Source: Gracilibacillus salitolerans
GTDB taxonomy: Bacteria > Bacillota > Bacilli > Bacillales > Amphibacillaceae
Direction: 5' to 3'
Assembly: GCF_009650095.1 (NCBI RefSeq)
Contig: NZ_CP045915.1
Coordinates: 3,348,001 to 3,412,000, forward strand
DNA length: 64,000 nucleotides
Shown here one piece after another: positions 1,478 to 26,974 of the stretch. Every line of letters begins with the position of its first letter. Position 1 is the first letter of the stretch. The position numbers and the translations under genes were made by a program. Under the pieces are notes generated by a model that did not search any database, was not told the origin of the DNA, and saw only the letters and a program-made list of their open reading frames with translations.

Positions 1478-2725
1478 CTATTTAAATAAAACAACAATTA
1501 TTGATACCGCATAAACTGTTGATACAATCATGATTATACCTTGCGCTAACCACACACCTACTGCCATTTGTGCTAACATCGAGCCAATTAATAACAATAC
1601 ACTAACCGTTAATACGGTAAACAGTACGACTGCTAATTTTTCATTAATCATCTCTTTTAAAGTCGGAACTTTTTCTTTTCCAATATGATCTGCATATTTT
1701 TTTGTCCACCATAAAAAAGGAACAATTTTATATAAATAACCTAAGATACTAAAAATAATCCAACAGATAATATAACTAAATAAAAGAATCCCCCAGTGAA
1801 AAGCAGATTGTACTCCTTCAAGCGCAAAAAGCACAGCAATAATATGAATGAGATTACCAAGCACAATGGCAATTAAAGAAAAGATAAATGGTTTATCTAA
1901 CTTTTTTTTAAAACGATTCTGGTAAATGATTTTCATATTATACGTGAAAAGCGTAAAACCAATTGCTAATAAAAGAAAGCCAATTGATTGCACATACGCA
2001 ATTTGTATCCAAAACGAAACAGATACAAATAAGAGTCCAATGATATAACTAGTGATCGCATATTTGGCATAATGAGTAGAATAACCATGTGATAAACTGA
2101 ACATAGGAACCAATTTATAAGAAAAGCCGAAGATCAGTAGACTAAACCAGCCAACTACTCCGAACAAGATATGAGTATAAAAAATCGATTCATGGAACGC
2201 CACGTCTTTTGTTGCAAAACTATATGCCAACAAAAATCCTGCTGCCATTGTTAGAAAAAGCATAACTAACGCTGCAAAAACAAATGTATACATAATCGAT
2301 TTTTTCTCTGTTTGGCGAAGCGTGAACACCATCTGTATTAAAAACATAGATATCCCAATCACAACAATAATCGCTCCATAAATGGAATTAGTAGGGCTGA
2401 ATGCTAATAAACCAGCAAAGACAACCACTCCGGAACAACTGAATAGCAACGGGAGATATCCTAGTTTTTGTCTCCAAATACTCGTTAAAAACACAACAGG
2501 AACTAATTGATACATCGCCCCCATCGCTACAATCATCGCAAATCCTAATAATAATAAATGCGCTGCAGACCAAATATCAGGTATCCTGAAGTGCCCTTGT
2601 AAAATCGAGCCACTATTGATAAAAACGATAATCTGTGCGACAACAAATGCCATTAAACCAAAAACAATAAAACTTAATGGCAATCTAATATCGGTATCAC
2701 TCTTGATATTTGCAGTTGGCATCAT
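1478..2725 (-). CDS. 12-helix oxidase-subunit-I-like membrane protein with triplicated His motif
   Basis: A 415-residue, almost wholly hydrophobic protein with about 12 helices. The start is ATG 2725, with GGTGAG just upstream inside the end of the preceding gene; ATG 2722 is an alternative. A motif of the form H-x(15)-Y-x-LVP or similar occurs at H56..YQLVP, H185..YKLVP and again near the C-terminus (FHWG..YKIVP). This recalls heme-binding helices of the NorB/CcoN superfamily and related 'oxidase-like' proteins of denitrifying Bacilli. It lacks a complete heme-copper ligand set, so enzymatic oxidase activity is not claimed. Its operon partners are two DUF2249 proteins and a DUF59 protein. 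Confidence 0.6.
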   Translation of the reverse strand: MMPTANIKSDTDIRLPLSFIVFGLMAFVVAQIIVFINSGSILQGHFRIPDIWSAAHLLLLGFAMIVAMGAMYQLVPVVFLTSIWRQKLGYLPLLFSCSGVVVFAGLLAFSPTNSIYGAIIVVIGISMFLIQMVFTLRQTEKKSIMYTFVFAALVMLFLTMAAGFLLAYSFATKDVAFHESIFYTHILFGVVGWFSLLIFGFSYKLVPMFSLSHGYSTHYAKYAITSYIIGLLFVSVSFWIQIAYVQSIGFLLLAIGFTLFTYNMKIIYQNRFKKKLDKPFIFSLIAIVLGNLIHIIAVLFALEGVQSAFHWGILLFSYIICWIIFSILGYLYKIVPFLWWTKKYADHIGKEKVPTLKEMINEKLAVVLFTVLTVSVLLLIGSMLAQMAVGVWLAQGIIMIVSTVYAVSIIVVLFK

Positions 2726-2726
2726 T

Positions 2727-2945
2727 TTACTCACCACGCTTTGTTATTACTATTTTAAAACTGCCGTCTTCTTGGGATTCTGTTACATGGTCAAAGCCTA
2801 ATTCATCTAATTCCTCATACAAAAACATCGGTCTCCGGTCATTAACAATGGCCAACTGCTCACCACTTTCCATCGTTTCTAAGTATTTCAAGGTGCGAAT
2901 CATCGGTTGAGGTGGCTCCATTCCTCTATTATCTAAGGTTATCAT
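2727..2945 (-). CDS. DUF2249 (TusA-like) protein, second copy
   Basis: A 72-residue protein opening ITLDNRGMEPPQPMIRTL, the typical DUF2249 start (D-x-R-G-x-EPP). It has a TusA-like beta-alpha fold but no catalytic Cys. The start at 2945 has GAGGTG seven nt upstream and overlaps the preceding gene by 17 nt, so the pair is probably translationally coupled. DUF2249 genes are common beside denitrification and NO-stress genes in Bacilli. The biochemical role is unknown. Confidence 0.85.
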   Translation of the reverse strand: MITLDNRGMEPPQPMIRTLKYLETMESGEQLAIVNDRRPMFLYEELDELGFDHVTESQEDGSFKIVITKRGE

Positions 2946-3256: not shown

Positions 3257-3299
3257 ATGATAATCATTATCAATTAAAAGAGCTGTGATTTCGGTCACA
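3257..3299 (-). promoter_or_regulatory. Fnr box with matching -10 (divergent promoter region)
   Basis: TGTGATTTCGGTCACA at 3284-3299 is a perfect TGTGA-N6-TCACA, the Bacillus Fnr consensus. If it sits at -41.5, the -10 for the leftward operon falls at 3257-3262, where TATCAT is seen. For ctaA on the plus strand the -10 falls at 3321-3326, which reads TATCAC. One box may therefore serve both directions under oxygen limitation. Confidence 0.75.
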
Positions 3300-3375: not shown

Positions 3376-4188
3376 TTGGTAAAGAAAAAATTATTGATAG
3401 TCATTATATTGACGTATTTGTTGATTGTATTTGGTGGCTATGTAGCTTCATCCGAATCGGGAATGGGCTGTGGACCGGAATGGCCATTATGTAACGGAGC
3501 GGTGATACCCGAATTACAGGGTGATACTTTAATCGAATTTGCCCATCGCGTGATTGGACTGGTTTTGTTTTTACTGTTCAGCCAGGTTGTCATACATATC
3601 TATAGGAACGAACGATATCACCATCTTAAGTCCATTGCGTTTTACAGTTATTTGTTATTAATATTTCAAATAATAGCGGGAGCTGTCGTCGTTATTTTAG
3701 ATCTGCCTGCTCTTGTCGTAACACTACACTTAGTGTTAGCAATGATTTTTTCTGGATTATTAACCTATCTCTATCGTCATACAGAAAACCCTTATTTTAA
3801 AGAAAAAAAGTCACAACACTTACCGTTATTGTTACTCACCCTACTAATAACAATAGGATTAGGTGCATATGTAAAACATACATCGATTGGTTTAACGTGT
3901 AGTTGGTTTGGTTGTCATTCAGCGTTTATCCCAACCTCACTAGAAGGATGGATACAAACGGTCCATCGAGTTTTTGCTCTTTTTAGTTTGGTTTATCTCA
4001 TTTATGTGGCATTCATCTATCGCAACCGCTCCATACTCATAGCGCTCGTTTTGCTAGTTATCCAAATAACGGTTGGTGTTATCACCATCTTGACCAAGAT
4101 TGACCTGTTCTGGGGCGTGTTACATTTAGCCTTTGCCACTGCTGTTTACTATTTTGTGCTTGATGCGTGGTTACAAACTAAACAGTAA
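3376..4188 (+). CDS. ctaA: Heme A synthase, CtaA/COX15 family
   Basis: CtaA oxidises the C8 methyl of heme O to give heme A for terminal oxidases. The 270-residue protein has about eight helices, His residues in helix pairs (EFAHRVIG, TLHLVLA, TVHRVFA, VLHLAFA), and the two Cys pairs of Gram-positive CtaA (CGPEWPLC near residue 32 and CSWFGC near 175). The start is TTG at 3376, just after AAAGGAGGGAATGAA. The ATG at 3371 is followed at once by a stop codon and cannot be used. It is somewhat shorter than the roughly 300 residues of B. subtilis CtaA. It stands alone on this strand, divergent from an Fnr-box operon. Confidence 0.9.
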   Translation: MVKKKLLIVIILTYLLIVFGGYVASSESGMGCGPEWPLCNGAVIPELQGDTLIEFAHRVIGLVLFLLFSQVVIHIYRNERYHHLKSIAFYSYLLLIFQIIAGAVVVILDLPALVVTLHLVLAMIFSGLLTYLYRHTENPYFKEKKSQHLPLLLLTLLITIGLGAYVKHTSIGLTCSWFGCHSAFIPTSLEGWIQTVHRVFALFSLVYLIYVAFIYRNRSILIALVLLVIQITVGVITILTKIDLFWGVLHLAFATAVYYFVLDAWLQTKQ

Positions 4189-6620: not shown

Positions 6621-6716
6621 GATTATTTATCCCCTTTCTATTCGATTAAGTTTGTCAACCACTTACATCATAAACTATCGGCCACGACATTAATATGATT
6701 TTAATCACACTCAGAT

Positions 6717-6759
6717 TGTGATGTTGCTCACTTTATAGCAAAACAAAATAACTTATGCT
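6717..6759 (+). promoter_or_regulatory. Fnr-like box and -10 of heme-copper cluster 1
   Basis: TGTGATGTTGCTCACT at 6717-6732 matches TGTGA-N6-TCACA in 9 of 10 positions. If the box is centred at -41.5, the -10 should lie at 6754-6759, where TATGCT stands. In the other direction TATTAA at 6690-6695 would serve the copper lipoprotein gene. The box centre is 68.5 bp from the first start codon, the same distance as in cluster 2. Confidence 0.65.
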
Positions 6760-7012: not shown

Positions 7013-7474
7013 ATGAGTAAATTAGAAGAAATTTGGATGACAGTTAGTGTTGGTGTTCTCGTTATCTTTATGGTAATTGTCGGATACCAAACCTATGCCT
7101 TGGGGATGGGGCCACCAAGTCATAAAGAAACGATCGATCCGCAAAAAGTGGAACAAACCGCTCCATTTGATAACCCTGGCCTAATTGACCTCGGTGACAA
7201 CAAATACGAACTTGTTATGACGCTAGAAGCGTTTGCCTTTAACCCAGGAAATGTCGAAGTGCCGGTTGGAGCAGAGGTCGAATTTACCATGACCTCAAAA
7301 GATGTATCACATGGTGTTCAAATTCCAGGAACAAATGTAAATGCGATGGTATTACCTGGTCATATTCAAAAAATTACACATACATTTGATGAACCTGGTG
7401 AGTATCTCATTTTGTGTAATGAATATTGCGGTACTGGACATCAAGCAATGTTTACTACGATTACAGTGAAATAA
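7013..7474 (+). CDS. CuA-binding subunit II of ba3-like oxidase / CuA-type NOR
   Basis: A 153-residue subunit. ATG 7013 follows GAGGAGGGC; an open frame upstream lacks a site. One N-terminal helix (residues 9-30) anchors a cupredoxin domain outside the membrane. The CuA ligands are complete: His100 (VSHGVQ), Cys135, Glu137, Cys139, His143 and Met146 in CNEYCGTGHQAM. Electrons enter here and pass to subunit I, whose gene starts 12 nt downstream. Size and single helix match Thermus ba3 subunit II and the small subunit of Bacillus CuA-NOR. Confidence 0.9.
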   Translation: MSKLEEIWMTVSVGVLVIFMVIVGYQTYALGMGPPSHKETIDPQKVEQTAPFDNPGLIDLGDNKYELVMTLEAFAFNPGNVEVPVGAEVEFTMTSKDVSHGVQIPGTNVNAMVLPGHIQKITHTFDEPGEYLILCNEYCGTGHQAMFTTITVK

Positions 7475-7486
7475 GGAGGGACCAAA

Positions 7487-9166
7487 ATGGAACAGGCAAA
7501 AAATATTGGAATCAGAGAAAATGTAATAAGTAATTTAGGAGTTAACCCTCAGGATGCTAAAATTTCGCTGACTTATTTCACCATTTCATTTGCAACATTA
7601 TTAATTGGTGGTTTATTAGGGTTAATTCAAGGATTAGAACGCGCTGGTCTTTATTCGTTACCCGCAGGATTTAATTATTATCAAGTCTTATCCGCACACG
7701 GACTTTTATTATTGGTAGTTTTTACTGCTACATTTACAATCGGGTATCAACTTGCGAACCTCTCCCATTCTTTTAATGGATTATTACCAAAAGTTCGAAA
7801 AATGATCTGGATTGGTATCGTATTAAAGGTAATTGGTGTTGTACTTGCCGTAACCATGATTGTCTTAGGTGAAGCATCTGTATTATACACTTTCTACCCA
7901 CCATTGGCAGCACACCCAATCTTTTACATTGGGCTAGTTCTACTAGTGTTAGGTATTTGGTCTGTCGCTTTTGGTGTATTTATCAACTATCGTCATTGGC
8001 GAAAAGAAAACCCGGGCAAACCAACACCAATTCTTGCTTTTTTTGCAATGGGTGTGTTTGTACTATGGTTCTTCGCTAGTCTCGGTGTAACCATTGAAGT
8101 ATTTATGATTATCCCTTGGGTATTAGGATGGGTGGAAACAATTAATGTGATGGTAACAAGAACACTATTTTGGTGGTTTGGTCATACCCTTGTTAACATT
8201 TGGTATCTTGTTGCTACTTCTGCATGGTATATTATTGTTCCGAAAATCGTGGGAGGTAAACATTTCAATGAGAAATTAATTCGTTTAGTTGTTATTTTAC
8301 TCGTTGTATTGAACATCCCAGGAGGTTTCCACCATCAAATTATCGATCCTGCTATCTCCATATCCATTAAATTCTTACACGTATTCATGAGCTTGTCGAT
8401 CGCTGTTCCATCATTAATGACTGCTTTTGCCATGTTCTATGTGTTAGAAAAAGCTGGACGAAAAAAAGGTGGAAAAGGATTATTCGGATGGTTTAAGAAG
8501 CTACCATGGGGCGATGTTCGTTTCCTTGCACCAATGATTGCGATGATTGCCTTTATTCCGGGTGGTGCAGGTGGTATTGTCAACACAAGTAATCAAATGA
8601 ACCAAGTCATTCATAATACCATGTGGGTGGTTGGACACTTCCACGTCACCGTTGGGGTATCCGTGGTGCTTACGTTCTTTGGTATTTGTTACTGGTTAAT
8701 TCCACACTTATCCAAGCGTCAATTAACACCGAAAATGAATAAAATTGGTGTGATTCAAACTTGGATTTGGACGATTGGCATGACGATTATGGCTGGTTCC
8801 ATGCATTTAGCTGGCTTAGTCGGAGATCCTCGTCGTACTTCTGATACAACATATGCTGGTCATGAAACAGCATTAAGCTGGTTGCCATATGAGTATGTCT
8901 TCGCAACTGGAGCAACACTACTATTGATAGGTGTCATTATTCAGGTGTATGCCGTGTTTAACATGATGTTCTTTGCTCCAAAAGGCAAAACAGAATACCC
9001 TGTTTCCGAGCCGGAGGATGATCAGCCAAAAGTTCCGATGTGGACAGAACGCTGGGGATTATGGGCCATTGTATTACTTGCTGTCGTAGCAATGGCATAT
9101 GTTATTCCAATTGTAGACATGATTGTTAATGCACCTCCAGGATCTCCACCAATCAAAACTTGGTAA
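7487..9166 (+). CDS. B-family heme-copper subunit I with active-site Tyr replaced by Asn (probable CuA-type NO reductase)
   Basis: A 559-residue, about 13-helix protein clearly related to Thermus ba3 CbaA. Ligands are intact: His71 and His386 (low-spin heme), His384 (high-spin heme), and His233, His282 and His283 (CuB site). As I recall the Thermus protein, most of these carry the same residue numbers there. The helix-6 motif reads GHTLVNIW instead of GHPLVYFW, so the cross-linked Tyr needed for O2 reduction is Asn237, and GHFH is preceded by VV rather than VP. Loss of this Tyr is a mark of NO reductases in the superfamily; Bacillus azotoformans CuA-NOR is the closest functional precedent I know. 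NO reduction is inferred. Confidence 0.85.
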   Translation: MEQAKNIGIRENVISNLGVNPQDAKISLTYFTISFATLLIGGLLGLIQGLERAGLYSLPAGFNYYQVLSAHGLLLLVVFTATFTIGYQLANLSHSFNGLLPKVRKMIWIGIVLKVIGVVLAVTMIVLGEASVLYTFYPPLAAHPIFYIGLVLLVLGIWSVAFGVFINYRHWRKENPGKPTPILAFFAMGVFVLWFFASLGVTIEVFMIIPWVLGWVETINVMVTRTLFWWFGHTLVNIWYLVATSAWYIIVPKIVGGKHFNEKLIRLVVILLVVLNIPGGFHHQIIDPAISISIKFLHVFMSLSIAVPSLMTAFAMFYVLEKAGRKKGGKGLFGWFKKLPWGDVRFLAPMIAMIAFIPGGAGGIVNTSNQMNQVIHNTMWVVGHFHVTVGVSVVLTFFGICYWLIPHLSKRQLTPKMNKIGVIQTWIWTIGMTIMAGSMHLAGLVGDPRRTSDTTYAGHETALSWLPYEYVFATGATLLLIGVIIQVYAVFNMMFFAPKGKTEYPVSEPEDDQPKVPMWTERWGLWAIVLLAVVAMAYVIPIVDMIVNAPPGSPPIKTW

Positions 9167-9540: not shown

Positions 9541-9614
9541 ACAAAGCAAATACTTCTGTCTTAGCACTTAATCTACTAGGATCAAATTTATTATAATAAA
9601 AGGTGGTGCTTGGT

Positions 9615-10241
9615 TTGACTAATCATGAAAGGGTTGCATCGGTTGTTGTTATACTTTTTGGTTTCGTTGTTTTCTTTATTGGTACTGATGGCTTTCAAGC
9701 TTTTACAACGGAACAAGCACGCACGAACCAATTAATCAAAGAACAACCTCAAATACCCAATGTACTTCTAGAAGACAGTAAGAGCCGCACCTATACAGTC
9801 GAAGACCTACAACAAGATAAGTATTTATTTATTACTTTTATGTACACGAATTGTGCTACTGTCTGTCCACAATTAGAACGAAACATGCAAGAGGTTTATC
9901 AGCAATTGCCTTCGTCCATAGTCAAAGAAGACATTCAATTTCTAAGTATTAGCTTTGACCCAGAACATGATGATCCAGAAACACTCGAAAAATATCGGAC
10001 TTATTTTGACAGTGATGGGGAAACATGGCGAATGGCACGAATCAATGATCAGCAAGCGTTAGATGATTTACTAAATCAACTAGGTGTAGTCGTAATCCCT
10101 GATGATTATGGTAATTTTCAACACAATACAGCTTTTTATTTCGTTGACAGAGACGGCTATTTAGTCAATGTCATGGATTATACTGAAATTGATCAAGCAG
10201 TGGAACAGATTACATCAGTGATCGGAGGTGATCCAGTATGA
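9615..10241 (+). CDS. SCO1/SenC-family copper chaperone (cluster 1)
   Basis: A 208-residue membrane-anchored thioredoxin-fold protein. The preferred start is TTG 9615, eight nt after GGTGGT; GTG 9603 is an alternative but overlaps that site. An N-terminal helix precedes the domain. Cys80 and Cys84 form the SCO CxxxCP motif (YTNCATVCPQLERN), and the copper-ligand His lies in FQHNTAFYF. FDPEHDDPETLEKYR is the usual family segment. SCO proteins load CuA of subunit II. It overlaps the next gene by 4 nt (ATGA) and has a paralogue at 22863-23486. Confidence 0.9.
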   Translation: MTNHERVASVVVILFGFVVFFIGTDGFQAFTTEQARTNQLIKEQPQIPNVLLEDSKSRTYTVEDLQQDKYLFITFMYTNCATVCPQLERNMQEVYQQLPSSIVKEDIQFLSISFDPEHDDPETLEKYRTYFDSDGETWRMARINDQQALDDLLNQLGVVVIPDDYGNFQHNTAFYFVDRDGYLVNVMDYTEIDQAVEQITSVIGGDPV

Positions 10242-10792
10242 AACAGGAAAAATATAGTCTTATTTTATTTATCTTTTTAATACTTCCTTCTGTTGCCCAT
10301 TTATTAGAGTCGATTATGATCTTTCATATGCACACACAAATGCCCTTATTTGTTTTTGCTGGATTTCTGATGACACCTTTTTTCAAAAAGAAGTTTCCAA
10401 ACTTTTTCATGAAATGGAATCGTTCAGGAATTCCAGGTATCTTGTTAGTTATCTTAGTCTGGTCCTATTGGCAAATTCCACGGGCAATGGATGATGCATT
10501 AACGCATTCCTATGTGGAAATCTTTAAGTTTATCAGTCTACCTTTTTTAGTTGGCATACCGCTACGTGATAGCTGGCAAAAGATCAGGAATAATGGACAA
10601 TTTATTTTTTTGGTCTATTTACTTGCTACGTTGATTGTTACTGGTTTTCTTTACATTTGGGTAGATGAGCAAATTTGTAATAATTATTTAATCATTGAAC
10701 AACAAACTCTTGGTTGGGGTTCCTTAGCGATGGCTGCCTGTTTATTATTATATTTATTTTACCGTCAATTTGAGAGAGATGAAGGAGTTTAG
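10238..10792 (+). CDS. Conserved multi-helix membrane protein, 'orf1' of the NOR/oxidase cluster
   Basis: A 184-residue protein with about five or six helices. It is a paralogue of the protein at 22321-22866, and the two share fixed motifs: LES.M..HM..Q.PL (23-37), KWN..G..G.LL (59-70), PR..DDALT (81-89), FKF.SLP, and Q.CNNYLI.EQQ (145-156). Nothing in it points to an enzyme. The pairing with SCO in both clusters, and the norS-norY-senC-orf1 order I recall from Nitrosomonas, suggest an assembly factor or accessory subunit. Its stop overlaps that of the convergent YdcF-like gene by 2 nt. Confidence 0.75.
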   Translation: MKQEKYSLILFIFLILPSVAHLLESIMIFHMHTQMPLFVFAGFLMTPFFKKKFPNFFMKWNRSGIPGILLVILVWSYWQIPRAMDDALTHSYVEIFKFISLPFLVGIPLRDSWQKIRNNGQFIFLVYLLATLIVTGFLYIWVDEQICNNYLIIEQQTLGWGSLAMAACLLLYLFYRQFERDEGV

Positions 10793-22309: not shown

Positions 22310-22336
22310 AAAAGAAGAGACTATTTTGCCTCTTCC
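22310..22336 (-). terminator. Terminator of heme-copper cluster 2
   Basis: GAAGAG (22315-22320) and CTCTTC (22331-22336) arms at the stop of the last gene, then an AT-rich, moderately T-rich minus-strand tail. Confidence 0.5.
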
Positions 22337-22866
22337 ACTAACCCTCTAAAAAAGCCAATATACACTAGGTAAAGCAATGATACCAGCACAACGGAAAGGT
22401 AAACAGCCCCAACTATTTGTTGTTCGTTAATCAAGTAATTATTACAAATTTGTACAGGTGTTCCGAGATAAAGCCAGGCCAATAATCCAAACATCGATAA
22501 AAAATTAATATGAAGAAAACTTTTGAATATTCCTCCTAATTTTCGCCAGCTATTCCGCCATAGAAAACCAAGAAGAGGGAGTGAGACAAATTTCCAAACT
22601 TCCATTCCTGTTTCTGTTAAGGCATCATCCAATGATCGCGGAAGCATCCAGAAAAATAACACCCCGACAGCCAGTAACATTCCAGCAACACCATTTTCGT
22701 TCCATTTTTCAAGAAAATGCCAATTACGATTGCCATGTGATAAAACACCAACTAAAATAAGCAAAGGTAACTGCACAAACATATGCAGTACCATTACCGA
22801 TTCAAGACTGTCTCTAGTAACAGGGGCTAGTAAGAGAATAAAAAATACGATGGCTAACTTCATCAT
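22321..22866 (-). CDS. Conserved multi-helix membrane protein, 'orf1' paralogue of cluster 2
   Basis: A 181-residue protein with about five or six helices. It is homologous to the protein at 10238-10792 through LES.M.LHM..QLPL (21-35), KWN.NG..GMLL, PRSLDDALT (76-84), WKFVSLP and QICNNYLINEQQ (139-150). Overall identity outside these motifs is low, so the motifs mark functional sites. It overlaps the SCO gene by 4 nt and ends cluster 2. Function unknown; an assembly or accessory role for the reductase is inferred. Confidence 0.75.
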   Translation of the reverse strand: MMKLAIVFFILLLAPVTRDSLESVMVLHMFVQLPLLILVGVLSHGNRNWHFLEKWNENGVAGMLLAVGVLFFWMLPRSLDDALTETGMEVWKFVSLPLLGFLWRNSWRKLGGIFKSFLHINFLSMFGLLAWLYLGTPVQICNNYLINEQQIVGAVYLSVVLVSLLYLVYIGFFRGLVEEAK

Positions 22867-23486
22867 TTTCCCCCCTCTAACCTTCTAACGACATATTCTG
22901 TAGCAGCATTTATATCGGTATAATCGAGAACATTTTCTAAATATCCATCCTTATTAACAAAGTAAAAAGCAGAATTATGCGAAAAACCATATTCATCAGG
23001 GATAACAATCACCCCAAAAGCATCTAACAAAGATTCTAATTGTTGTTGATCTGGAACCCTTGCCATCCGCCATGTTTCTCCATCACTATTAAAATACTGG
23101 CGATAGTTTTCTAATGTTTCTGGATCATCTCGTTCTGGATCAAAACTTATCGTTAGAAAGATGATCTCTTCCCCAATATAATGTGCAGGAATGCTTTGAT
23201 ATACCTCTTCTAAATTTCTTTCTAACTCTGGACAAACGGTAGTACAAGCTGTATAAACAAAAGTTATTAACACATGTTTTCCACGAAACGTTTCCATTGT
23301 ATACGTTCGTTCTTTGCTATCTTCTAATATTACCTCTGGGAACTTTGGTTTCTCCTCTATCAATTTGTTCTTTCTTGCTGATTCTGCTGTAAAAACAGTA
23401 AATCCATCTGTTCCTATAAACAACATAAAAAGAACTAAAATAATTGATAGAGTAGTAGCTATTCTATTACAACATTTTTTCGCCAT
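22863..23486 (-). CDS. SCO1/SenC-family copper chaperone (cluster 2)
   Basis: A 207-residue paralogue of the cluster 1 SCO protein. It has an N-terminal helix (about 10-25), shared IGTDGF and SARKNKLIEEKP segments, Cys81 and Cys85 in YTACTTVCPELERN, FDPERDDPETLENYR, and His170 in FSHNSAFYF. ATG 23486 has AAAGGA upstream and overlaps the subunit I gene by 20 nt. It probably loads copper into the CuA site of the cluster 2 subunit II. Confidence 0.92.
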   Translation of the reverse strand: MAKKCCNRIATTLSIILVLFMLFIGTDGFTVFTAESARKNKLIEEKPKFPEVILEDSKERTYTMETFRGKHVLITFVYTACTTVCPELERNLEEVYQSIPAHYIGEEIIFLTISFDPERDDPETLENYRQYFNSDGETWRMARVPDQQQLESLLDAFGVIVIPDEYGFSHNSAFYFVNKDGYLENVLDYTDINAATEYVVRRLEGGK

Positions 23487-24918
23487 AAAGATCGTTCCTT
23501 TTTACGTTTTGTTGCAATACATAGCGAACAAAATGAACGATAAATAATGTAGTAGCAATCATTAAAAATACTCCAGCAATTCCTCCAAATAATGCAGGCC
23601 CCATCCATTCAGGAATATGTGTTGCCCAACGTCTTGGTGTACTTAATGCACCGGAGACTAGAAATTGAACACTAACAGAAGCCATTGTTATGATATAACT
23701 AAAAAAGGCAATCCAGTCTAACTTCGTTACTTTTAAACCACCATCTACTTTTGCTAAATAATACATAAAGGCAAAAATCATAACTACTGCACCAAGTCCC
23801 ATATACATATGAAAATGTCCTGGTACCCATTTGGTATTATGCATGACATGGTTCACAACAATTGTTGCGTCAATGATTGCAGGAACAACTCCAACTGTCC
23901 AACCAAACATGGATAAAAAGGTTAATCCTGATGCCATATCCCACTTAATCCCTGACTTGTAGACAATCATTAGTGCACCATAAGCGGTGACAATTAGTAC
24001 TGGTAAACCATTTGCATAGGAAAACACCTGTCCAATTATTAACATCCATTTTGGCATGACAGAATCCATCAACACATGATGCGTATAAATCATTAATGTA
24101 AATACAGTTGACATTGACCATGCGATTAAAAAGACTTTGTTCGCTTTCCACGGTCTGTTTGTATACTTTGCTAACAATTCATAGACGACAATAACACCCA
24201 TGTAAATAATCGAATTAGCGAACACATGACCAAATGCAAACGTTAAATTTTTCGCTAAAAGTGGATCAAAGGTAAAAGATGGATTAATTGTATGGATGAT
24301 GTTCATCATTATCACAGTTGCACCGGCAATCAATGCTGTTACGTTAACGATCGTTACCATTGTACTGGCGATAATCGCTGGTGCGGGTGCGTCTTTTTCG
24401 GCTTTTTTACCGGCAATCACATCCCAACCTAACCCTTTGGCAAGACTGCCTTGTTTTTTCATGATGGCACGGCCTGTATCAATGAATAAAAGTATAAAGC
24501 CAATACCAATTATTAACATACCTATTAGATATAGTAATGCACCAATTGTTCCCCATGCCTTAGCAGATAAGGTTGGTAATGGATACAAAAACGTCCAAGC
24601 ACTTGCATAATCAAAGGAGAAAACACCAATGATAATAAGCACAAGTCCAATTACAAATAATACTAAGTTCGTCACAAAAATTTTCTTGGATAGTGTGACA
24701 TGCTGACTTAAAAAATACCACATCACAGCAGATGCTGCTAATCCAGCCGCACCAATCATTCCAGTTCCATGTATTGTCATGAATTGATAAAATGTCGGTG
24801 TACTAAGAGATAGAACACCACCTTGGGCGAGCAACATCAAAATACCAAATACCATCATCAATAAAATCACTGTTCCACCAATGATTAAGTAATTTTTGAT
24901 TAATCGATTATGGACCAT
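23467..24918 (-). CDS. Heme-copper subunit I with active-site Tyr replaced by Asn (second, sNOR-like)
   Basis: A 483-residue, about 12-helix protein. ATG 24918 follows AAGGAG by 8 nt. His50 (TIHGTG) and His370 would bind the low-spin heme, His368 (PGHFHMY) the high-spin heme, and His231, His280 and His281 (FGHVFAN, THHVLMD) CuB. The residue four after His231, Tyr in oxygen reductases, is Asn235. It is only distantly related to the cluster 1 enzyme. Gene order II-I-SCO-orf1 resembles the norY/norS-senC-orf1 cluster I recall from ammonia oxidisers, so an NO reductase is the favoured reading. An unusual oxidase is the alternative. Confidence 0.82.
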   Translation of the reverse strand: MVHNRLIKNYLIIGGTVILLMMVFGILMLLAQGGVLSLSTPTFYQFMTIHGTGMIGAAGLAASAVMWYFLSQHVTLSKKIFVTNLVLFVIGLVLIIIGVFSFDYASAWTFLYPLPTLSAKAWGTIGALLYLIGMLIIGIGFILLFIDTGRAIMKKQGSLAKGLGWDVIAGKKAEKDAPAPAIIASTMVTIVNVTALIAGATVIMMNIIHTINPSFTFDPLLAKNLTFAFGHVFANSIIYMGVIVVYELLAKYTNRPWKANKVFLIAWSMSTVFTLMIYTHHVLMDSVMPKWMLIIGQVFSYANGLPVLIVTAYGALMIVYKSGIKWDMASGLTFLSMFGWTVGVVPAIIDATIVVNHVMHNTKWVPGHFHMYMGLGAVVMIFAFMYYLAKVDGGLKVTKLDWIAFFSYIITMASVSVQFLVSGALSTPRRWATHIPEWMGPALFGGIAGVFLMIATTLFIVHFVRYVLQQNVKRNDLYGEKML

Positions 24919-24934
24919 CCAAAACACTCCTTCA

Positions 24935-25459
24935 CTAATTAATTACCGTAATTTGATAGGTCATCACATGATGAGCAAGGCCGCAATATTCCAGACATAA
25001 CACTTCATACGTACCTGGTTCGGTAAACGTTAGATAGACAACATTGGTGTACTCTGGCATTGCTTGTGTTTGCGCAATCATGTTCATTTCCTCATCGTAT
25101 ATTCCAAATCCATGATTAACATCTTGACTTGTCACATGAAATTCTATTGCCTCTCCAACTTTAAACTCTGATTGACTTAACTCCCAACCAAATTGCAACG
25201 CTTCCACATCAACAATTGTTGGGTCCTCACCTTTTCCGTAAACTGGTTGGTCATAAGGAAGTTCTCTTAGTGTGTAAATCGTAATGATGAGCATAAATAC
25301 CACAAGAGTAACACCATAAAATGTCCTGGCTTTGTACCATTTCTTTTTAATCCGTCCATACTCTCTTTTTTCAGTCGATTTCAAAGCTACAAATAAAAAA
25401 ATAAAGGTAATCAATAACATAAAAATAAGACTTGTTATCCACGCAACAGTTTGAACCAT
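24935..25459 (-). CDS. CuA-binding subunit II (cluster 2)
   Basis: A 174-residue subunit from ATG 25459, with AGGAGGTAG upstream. Two N-terminal helices (about 7-26 and 46-63) anchor a cupredoxin domain. CuA ligands are His116 (VNHGFG), Cys155, Glu157, Cys159, His163 and Met166 (CLEYCGLAHHVM). It differs from the cluster 1 subunit in having two helices, like NorY-type or ordinary subunit II. It is the first gene of cluster 2, 68.5 bp from the centre of an Fnr-like box. Confidence 0.9.
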   Translation of the reverse strand: MVQTVAWITSLIFMLLITFIFLFVALKSTEKREYGRIKKKWYKARTFYGVTLVVFMLIITIYTLRELPYDQPVYGKGEDPTIVDVEALQFGWELSQSEFKVGEAIEFHVTSQDVNHGFGIYDEEMNMIAQTQAMPEYTNVVYLTFTEPGTYEVLCLEYCGLAHHVMTYQITVIN

Positions 25460-25492: not shown

Positions 25493-25535
25493 AATGTATG
25501 ACAAATTATTTATGTTACGTGTGATACAAATCACT
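25493..25535 (-). promoter_or_regulatory. Fnr-like box and -10 of heme-copper cluster 2
   Basis: TGTGATACAAATCACT at 25520-25535 has the same one-base departure from TGTGA-N6-TCACA as the cluster 1 box. A -10 of TACATT lies at the position (25498-25493) expected for a site at -41.5. Confidence 0.65.
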
Positions 25536-25720: not shown

Positions 25721-26974
25721 TTAATAATCTAACGCTTCTGTTAATACGTTCAAATTTCGCTCCATTAAGCTAAAATATGTTTCGTCATTTTCAATATCCT
25801 CATCAGTCAAAATGGATAAATTATGCAATTGCAATGATTCGACGTTTGTTTCTGCTTGAATTACTTCTGCTACTTTTGGTTCTATATTTTGTTCAAATAA
25901 TAAATATTGAATATTGGTATCTTCAACATGATCCAGAATTCTCTCCAACTCTTTCTGAGAAGGTTCTTCCGATGGAGACAAACCAGCTAATGCAATTTGC
26001 TCGAGTCCGTAGCTTTGTTCCCAATAGCCATATGCAGCATGAGTAACGAGAATTTCATTATTTGTTGCACCTTCTAATTGTTCATGGAATTCATCATCTA
26101 AAGCAATTAATCTATCTTCTAAATCACTGAAATTAGTTTCAAATATTTCTTCTTGCTCCGGATTTAATTCTATTAAGGCATCCTTGATATTACGCGCCAG
26201 TTCAATGGAACGGATAGGATCTAACCAAAGATGCGGATCATCATCACCATGGTCATGATCATGTTCCTCTTCAACTTCCACTTCAGCTTCTTCTTCATGT
26301 GCATGTTCATCTTCGTGACTGTGTTCCTCTTCCTCGTGTGCGTGCTCATCTTCGTGACTGTGTTCCTCTTCTTCGTGTGCGTGCTCATCTTCGTGACTGT
26401 GTTCCTCTTCTTCGTGTGCGTGCTCATCTTCGTGACTGTGTTCCTCTTCTTCGTGTGCGTGCTCATCTTCGTGACTGTGTTCCTCTTCTTCGTGTGCGTG
26501 CTCATCTTCGTGACTGTGTTCCTCTTCTTCGTGTGCGTGCTCATCTTCGTGACTGTGTTCCTCTTCTTCGTGTGCGTGCTCATCTTCATGTTTATGCACA
26601 TGCTCAACCAGTGAAACTCCTTCGGCTGCTTCTACCATTAATACATCCTCACCTACAAGTGCTTCTTCTATTTTCCCCGCATAGGTTTCAAGATTAGCTC
26701 CATTATATAAAAACATATCCGCTTCTGCGATATCTACCATCATTTTAGAAGTAGGTTCAAAGTTATGCGGATCAGATCCAGGTGGTAAAATCGTTTCTAC
26801 CTCTACAAACTCCCCACCAATTTCTTCTGTAAAATAGGCTAACGGATACAATGTTGAATAGATTTGAAGTGTATCATTCTCTGATTCTTGTTGATCTGCT
26901 TGAGAGTCTTCCTCAGCATTACAACCTATTAACAGAAATAATATAGATAAAATGGCTAAACTTACTTTTTTCAT
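25721..26974 (-). CDS. znuA: Zinc ABC transporter substrate-binding lipoprotein with long His/Glu/Asp repeat
   Basis: A 417-residue lipoprotein with lipobox LIGC (Cys18). The ZnuA/AdcA fold is clear: ILPPGSDPHNFEPTSKM with His70, DPHLWLDP after the repeat, VTHAAYGYWEQSYGLEQ and LFEQNIEPKVAEV. Between the two lobes lies a repeat of HSHEDEHAHEEEE, seven copies after one degenerate copy (residues about 127-235), then HDHDHGDDD. This loop is far longer than usual and would bind several zinc ions. No ATPase or permease gene is adjacent. Three Zur-like boxes lie upstream. Confidence 0.93.
   Translation of the reverse strand: MKKVSLAILSILFLLIGCNAEEDSQADQQESENDTLQIYSTLYPLAYFTEEIGGEFVEVETILPPGSDPHNFEPTSKMMVDIAEADMFLYNGANLETYAGKIEEALVGEDVLMVEAAEGVSLVEHVHKHEDEHAHEEEEHSHEDEHAHEEEEHSHEDEHAHEEEEHSHEDEHAHEEEEHSHEDEHAHEEEEHSHEDEHAHEEEEHSHEDEHAHEEEEHSHEDEHAHEEEAEVEVEEEHDHDHGDDDPHLWLDPIRSIELARNIKDALIELNPEQEEIFETNFSDLEDRLIALDDEFHEQLEGATNNEILVTHAAYGYWEQSYGLEQIALAGLSPSEEPSQKELERILDHVEDTNIQYLLFEQNIEPKVAEVIQAETNVESLQLHNLSILTDEDIENDETYFSLMERNLNVLTEALDY
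26295..26590. repeat. In-gene tandem repeat, 39-bp period, seven full copies
   Basis: Nearly identical 39-bp units inside the znuA-like gene, such as 'tcttcgtgactgtgttcctc', repeat seven times, with only a few base changes (cctcg versus ttcg) in the copies at the ends. Near-identity at the DNA level implies recent expansion and probable length variation between strains. Confidence 0.95.

Follow-up and report, generated by a model that had tools for sequence, protein, structure and literature searches.

The analysed window, a stretch of 64,000 nucleotides from Gracilibacillus salitolerans, contains two clusters for CuA-bearing haem-copper enzymes. The second of them (cluster 2) is probably an sNOR operon, coding for an NO reductase of two subunits from the haem-copper B family, with the activity deduced from the sequence. 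Cluster 2 adds to a known type: it is an sNOR located beside a bNOR (cluster 1), which is the usual pairing among relatives.

The order of genes in cluster 2 put forward in the earlier note (subunit II, subunit I, SCO and orf1, from 25459 to 22321 on the minus strand) is borne out (Table 1). Subunit II has two N-terminal hydrophobic stretches, and the CuA ligands, the His of DVNHGF followed by CLEYCGLAHHVM, can be read off its sequence; their ligand roles are assigned by analogy with ba3 oxidase. Subunit I matches the Pfam COX1 profile with 157.8 bits (cut-off 34.8) and retains the CuB and haem His residues, the CuB His being residue 234. The Asn noted earlier at the position of the cross-linked Tyr is confirmed as residue 238 in the 486-residue reading; it becomes 235 if translation starts at Met4, consistent with the 483-residue database record. 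A near named relative of the cluster 2 protein is found in Gracilibacillus saliphilus (94%). Genes for an ArsR-family regulator, ArsB and a protein of the low-molecular-weight-phosphatase fold such as ArsC follow 3' of the cluster and are read as a separate arsenic operon. A ZnuA-like zinc-binding lipoprotein (25721-26974, minus strand) contains a run of near-identical His/Glu/Asp-rich repeats.

Table 1. Features of the two clusters in the window
Feature	Position	Strand	Basis or remark
FNR-type palindrome AGTGA-N6-TCACA	25520..25535	-	1 mismatch; about 60 bases 5' of subunit II start
sNOR subunit II (norS-like)	24935..25459	-	Pfam COX2 above cut-off; CuA domain
sNOR subunit I (norY-like), 486 aa	23467..24927	-	COX1 match, tree, His inspection
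Asn238 codon, where oxidases have the cross-linked Tyr	24214..24216	-	alignment
SCO/SenC copper chaperone	22863..23486	-	Pfam SCO1-SenC above cut-off
orf1 membrane protein, weakly DUF1404-like	22321..22866	-	profile scan, alignment of relatives
Two FNR-type palindromes upstream of bNOR cluster	6694-6709 and 6717-6732	+	1 mismatch each
Cluster 1 membrane peptide, 41 aa	6793..6918	+	sequence reading
Cluster 1 bNOR subunit II (CuA)	7013..7474	+	Pfam
Cluster 1 bNOR subunit I, Asn within GHTLVN motif	7487..9166	+	Pfam, tree, alignment
Cluster 1 SCO protein	9603..10241	+	Pfam; 60% identity to cluster 2 SCO
Cluster 1 orf1	10238..10792	+	40% identity to cluster 2 orf1

The two subunit I genes lie 14.3 kb apart, and a near named relative of the cluster 1 protein is found in G. 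suaedae (96%). A gene of the COX15-CtaA family (haem A synthase, 3376-4188), roughly 3 kb away from the bNOR genes, has a perfect FNR-type palindrome (3284-3299) directly before it. Facing this ctaA gene and adjoining an Fe-S assembly-type gene is a gene for a 419-residue membrane protein (1478-2737, minus strand), which matches no family of Pfam or NCBIfam at E <= 0.001.

To read the Tyr/Asn column, 75 selected subunit I sequences were aligned. Asn occupies it in every sNOR row checked (27-28 rows), in 11 of 11 bNOR rows and in the 12 Asn-type rows that were added; Tyr occupies it in all 23 oxidases of the B family and in both of the A family. The cross-linked Tyr, a hallmark of the oxygen-reducing B family (ba3), is absent from cluster 2 subunit I. 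The genome codes for five COX1-family proteins: two A-family oxidases, one B-family oxidase that keeps Tyr (motif GHPLVY), the bNOR and the sNOR. By the subunit I comparisons, no qNOR or cNOR was found among these five genes; PF00115 also catches NorB. The ba3 K-channel positions S309, T312, T315 and Y244 (ba3 numbering) are occupied by V, V, Y and V in the aligned cluster 2 subunit I. By homology at these four positions the cluster 2 sNOR appears to lack a K-type proton channel, in agreement with Table A4 of PMC8756737, where sNOR is entered as 'N, 0 channels' (Asn, no channel) and CuANOR as Asn with 1 channel.

The function of sNOR is debated between NO reductase and oxidase, and the experimental work found in the literature comes from nitrifiers. 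For Nitrosomonas europaea, passages of PMC6967387 propose an oxidase role from the retained haem-copper site and from expression, with sNOR transcripts up 2.7- to 10.8-fold at O2 limitation; the same passages cite indirect evidence of NO reduction by the Nitrococcus sNOR. No assay of a purified sNOR was found in the literature examined, which counts against the NO-reductase reading. Nevertheless, it seems rather unlikely that the enzyme is a high-affinity, NO-tolerant O2 reductase instead, as Asn replaces the cross-link Tyr in 28 of 28 sNOR rows checked and the genome already codes for two A-family oxidases and for a B-family oxidase that keeps the Tyr.

Phylogenetic analysis of subunit I, suggested in the earlier note as a check, was based on 56 selected rows; the tool gave a warning about long branches and flagged one row (Thermomicrobium) for odd composition. 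The window protein groups with sNOR, and all 27 sNOR rows, including those of Nitrosovibrio, Nitrosospira, Ruegeria pomeroyi and Thermomicrobium, form one clade (100/100). Ammonia-oxidizing bacteria (AOB) are represented in this tree by Nitrosovibrio and Nitrosospira and not by N. europaea; B. azotoformans sequences are also absent from it. The bNOR clade (11 rows, 100/100) is nested among Tyr-bearing B-family oxidases, so that cluster 1 combines Asn with a clade of its own next to Tyr-type enzymes. Two changes are needed to explain the Tyr/Asn states on the tree. As a side observation, the distant sNOR-like enzyme with Asn on a Thermomicrobium roseum plasmid (L068) is encoded in a cluster where no orf1 was recognized, and which carries a formate/nitrite transporter and another gene whose annotation reads cytochrome c oxidase assembly protein.

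These data also bear on whether clusters 1 and 2 represent a single duplicated operon that has since diverged. Their gene order is identical, and the identity between clusters is 60% for SCO and 40% for orf1. However, it drops to 33% for subunit II and 25% for subunit I (over 393 residues, confirming the distant likeness described earlier), and bNOR joins the Tyr-type B oxidases while sNOR does not. Constraining all Asn rows to one clade cost 15.5 log units and is disfavoured, if marginally (AU p 0.046). Taken together, a duplication is very improbable.

The helper genes tell a different story from subunit I. Of 143 Asn-type loci, 138 have an orf1 that we recognized 3' of subunit I; the loci from the genome scan are the top 80 out of 553 in similarity to the Ruegeria protein. 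By group, it was found in all 30 sNOR loci of the family, 79 of 83 other sNOR loci and 29 of 30 family bNOR loci, the lone exception being at a contig end. The corresponding numbers for SCO are 15/30, 80/83 and 30/30. Outside the family, both helpers accompany bNOR in 7 of 11 loci and neither does in the remaining 4, which are nested in the tree and represent two losses. Two further sNOR loci were added; one has neither helper and the other, with a split subunit I, has both. Next to Tyr-type enzymes (33 loci, ~3 kb searched on each side) orf1 was never recognized and SCO was recognized once. Likewise, neither gene occurs within the 7.6 kb surrounding the genome's own ba3-type oxidase (L169, C1:2598456). 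We found no earlier description of this tie of orf1 to Asn-type versus Tyr-type clusters; as a marker, it could aid annotation of Asn-type enzymes.

Some proteobacterial copies match the window sNOR orf1 at 41-48% over shorter stretches, no less closely than the bNOR orf1 does. Since identities alone do not discriminate, the case for orf1 exchange depends on the tree. The tree of orf1 (51 rows, with four omitted) splits bNOR and most family sNOR copies from proteobacterial and Neobacillus-type sNOR copies (100/100). The SCO tree (49 rows) also groups bNOR with most family sNOR (100/99). In contrast, the subunit I tree unites family sNOR with the Neobacillus type (100/100) and places both far from bNOR. 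The pattern in the helper-gene trees was already present before rows were left out, and many forks inside their bNOR/family-sNOR group lack resolution. This conflict between trees implies that the SCO-orf1 pair has moved between the sNOR and bNOR cluster types, in either direction. No earlier description of SCO and orf1 being closer kin than the catalytic subunits, with exchange between clusters, was found in the literature.

As for orf1 itself, residues H28, Q32, D80, K92, C141 and Q149 are each kept in 96% or more when compared across 135 relatives. It has no Pfam match at E <= 0.001, and the window copy misses the DUF1404 (PF07185) gathering score (16.1 bits against a cut-off of 29.4); 8 of 19 orf1 family members match DUF1404 at E <= 1, the best at 7e-5. 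Comparison with CtaG (PF09678), represented by a shallow alignment of 3 sequences, gave an hhalign probability of 0.7%, and no clear fold match was found among the PDB chains searched. Tentatively, SCO and orf1 might constitute a mobile module that matures haem-copper sites without the His-Tyr cross-link, passed between sNOR and bNOR in Bacilli. Two separate Tyr-to-Asn lineages would thus have converged on one gene order, and orf1 might be an assembly factor specific to NO reductases or a third subunit.

Both cluster types are preceded by FNR-type palindromes. We scanned 300 bases 5' of subunit II for sNOR and 500 bases for bNOR with TGTGA-N6-TCACA, which we take to be the Fnr box of Bacillus, and derived expected counts from shuffles. 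Allowing up to 2 mismatches, a palindrome precedes 29 of the 30 family sNOR loci (4.1 expected) and 29 of the 30 family bNOR loci (6.7 expected), sites that are related by descent; the single sNOR locus without it has just 195 bases before the contig end. At up to 1 mismatch the numbers are 17 and 25, with 0.43 expected for each. Among Tyr-type control loci, 8 of 20 have a palindrome when 2 mismatches are allowed and 4 of 20 when 1 is allowed; among the Neobacillus sNOR loci, none of 3 has one. Over the whole window there is no excess over chance (34 versus 37.75 expected). Three matches to the Crp/Fnr-type helix-turn-helix above the cut-off are present in the genome. We found no earlier description of this signal before family sNOR and bNOR loci.

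The same loci make it highly doubtful that cluster 2 is decaying and of little use. It is true that SCO was recognized in half of the family sNOR loci, and that two relatives (G049, locus L034; G396, locus L208) have a subunit I broken across two reading frames, although such splits may reflect either decay or assembly error. The window cluster is nonetheless intact, with His residues, CuA ligands and Asn kept, and the palindrome is retained nearly throughout the family.

The earlier note regarded two CuA-NOR types in one genome as unusual. This proved wrong: 29 of the 30 family genomes with sNOR also code for bNOR, the exception being G094. Among 159 family genomes, sNOR (score over 600 bits) is present in 30 and bNOR (60% identity or more; Asn confirmed in the 30 with fetched loci) in 59. 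The association is strong (Fisher p 2.7e-14), across genomes that are not independent. In a class sample, where the best three candidates per genome were scored, sNOR was detected in 3 of 398 genomes, in one case split in two; two of these three have bNOR at the 60% threshold. The two clusters share a contig in 12 family genomes, within 70 kb in 8 and more than 800 kb apart in 4, and are on different contigs in the remaining 17. The near pairs span three genera, and draft contigs bias towards such pairs. Published accounts likewise contradict the view of an unusual pairing: both types were described in Bacillus azotoformans in 2012 (PMC3475470), and PMC11388526 counts 26 genomes that combine qNOR, bNOR and sNOR, and 2 of 433 where sNOR is the sole Nor.

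If cluster 2 is indeed an NO reductase, electrons would enter at CuA of subunit II, loaded by SCO, and pass via haem to the haem/CuB centre of subunit I, where 2 NO would be reduced to N2O. The missing cross-linked Tyr, which oxidases use for O2 splitting, would favour NO as the substrate. Given the loss of K-channel polar positions, protons are probably taken up from outside and little energy would be conserved. The orf1 product is probably either a maturation aid for the centre or a third subunit, and an FNR-type regulator probably turns the operon on as O2 drops. NarG is encoded ~50 kb ahead of the window start, and the next three reading frames resemble narH, narJ and narI on inspection. 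The genome search did not find NirK or cytochrome cd1 (cd1-NirS), nor NosZ, for which there were only four CuA-domain matches below the cut-off. With NarG present and NirK and cd1-NirS not found, the likely job is NO removal. Clearing NO that nitrate respiration releases as a by-product, or that enters from outside, would be the simplest role. Having sNOR and bNOR, no detected qNOR or cNOR and a shared FNR-type signal upstream of the two clusters, such Bacillota offer a test bed by deletion.

A literature search on Gracilibacillus and nitric oxide reductase returned no paper. According to PMC4719734, Bacillus vireti forms N2O via CuANor in nitrate ammonification. KEGG labels both sNOR and bNOR cytochrome c oxidase, according to PMC11388526. 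The genome's own ba3-type oxidase resembles cluster 2 in having a B-family subunit I and differs in its Tyr. The bNOR/CuANOR of cluster 1 (qCuANOR type I) shares with cluster 2 the Asn, CuA, related SCO and orf1 and the palindrome, and differs in its distant subunit I, placed among Tyr-bearing B oxidases, and in an extra cbaC-like peptide.

For B. azotoformans, PMC3475470 describes qCuANOR type I as cbaC, B, A and senC together with a six-helix protein, with Asn, and type II as a shorter subunit I, a two-helix subunit II, SCO and a 4-5-helix protein, also with Asn; these descriptions fit clusters 1 and 2, respectively. By position, unaligned, the 41-residue peptide of cluster 1 stands in place of the 46-residue cbaC. 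Cluster 2 is like type II (BAZO_04695-04710), by description with sequences unaligned, in gene order, short subunit I, Asn, SCO, membrane protein and two membrane helices in subunit II. B. bataviensis has both types, according to the same paper, with its type II lacking SCO and the membrane protein and having a truncated subunit II. In PMC3475470 the name sNOR was given to type I, whereas our tree groups AOB sequences with the shorter type.

The earlier assignment of cluster 2 to the sNOR type of ammonia oxidizers holds, given the norSY-senC-orf1 order (reported for AOB in PMC4940428) and the grouping with Nitrosovibrio and Nitrosospira. The order also matches Ruegeria pomeroyi, where, on a megaplasmid (L066), an Rrf2-family regulator precedes the sNOR cluster, a formate/nitrite transporter follows it, and a cbb3 oxidase operon adjoins. 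Cluster 2 and AOB sNOR have in common the gene order, Asn and the subunit I clade, with 50% identity to subunit I of Nitrosospira sp. Nsp11; unlike them, cluster 2 resides in a member of Bacillota.
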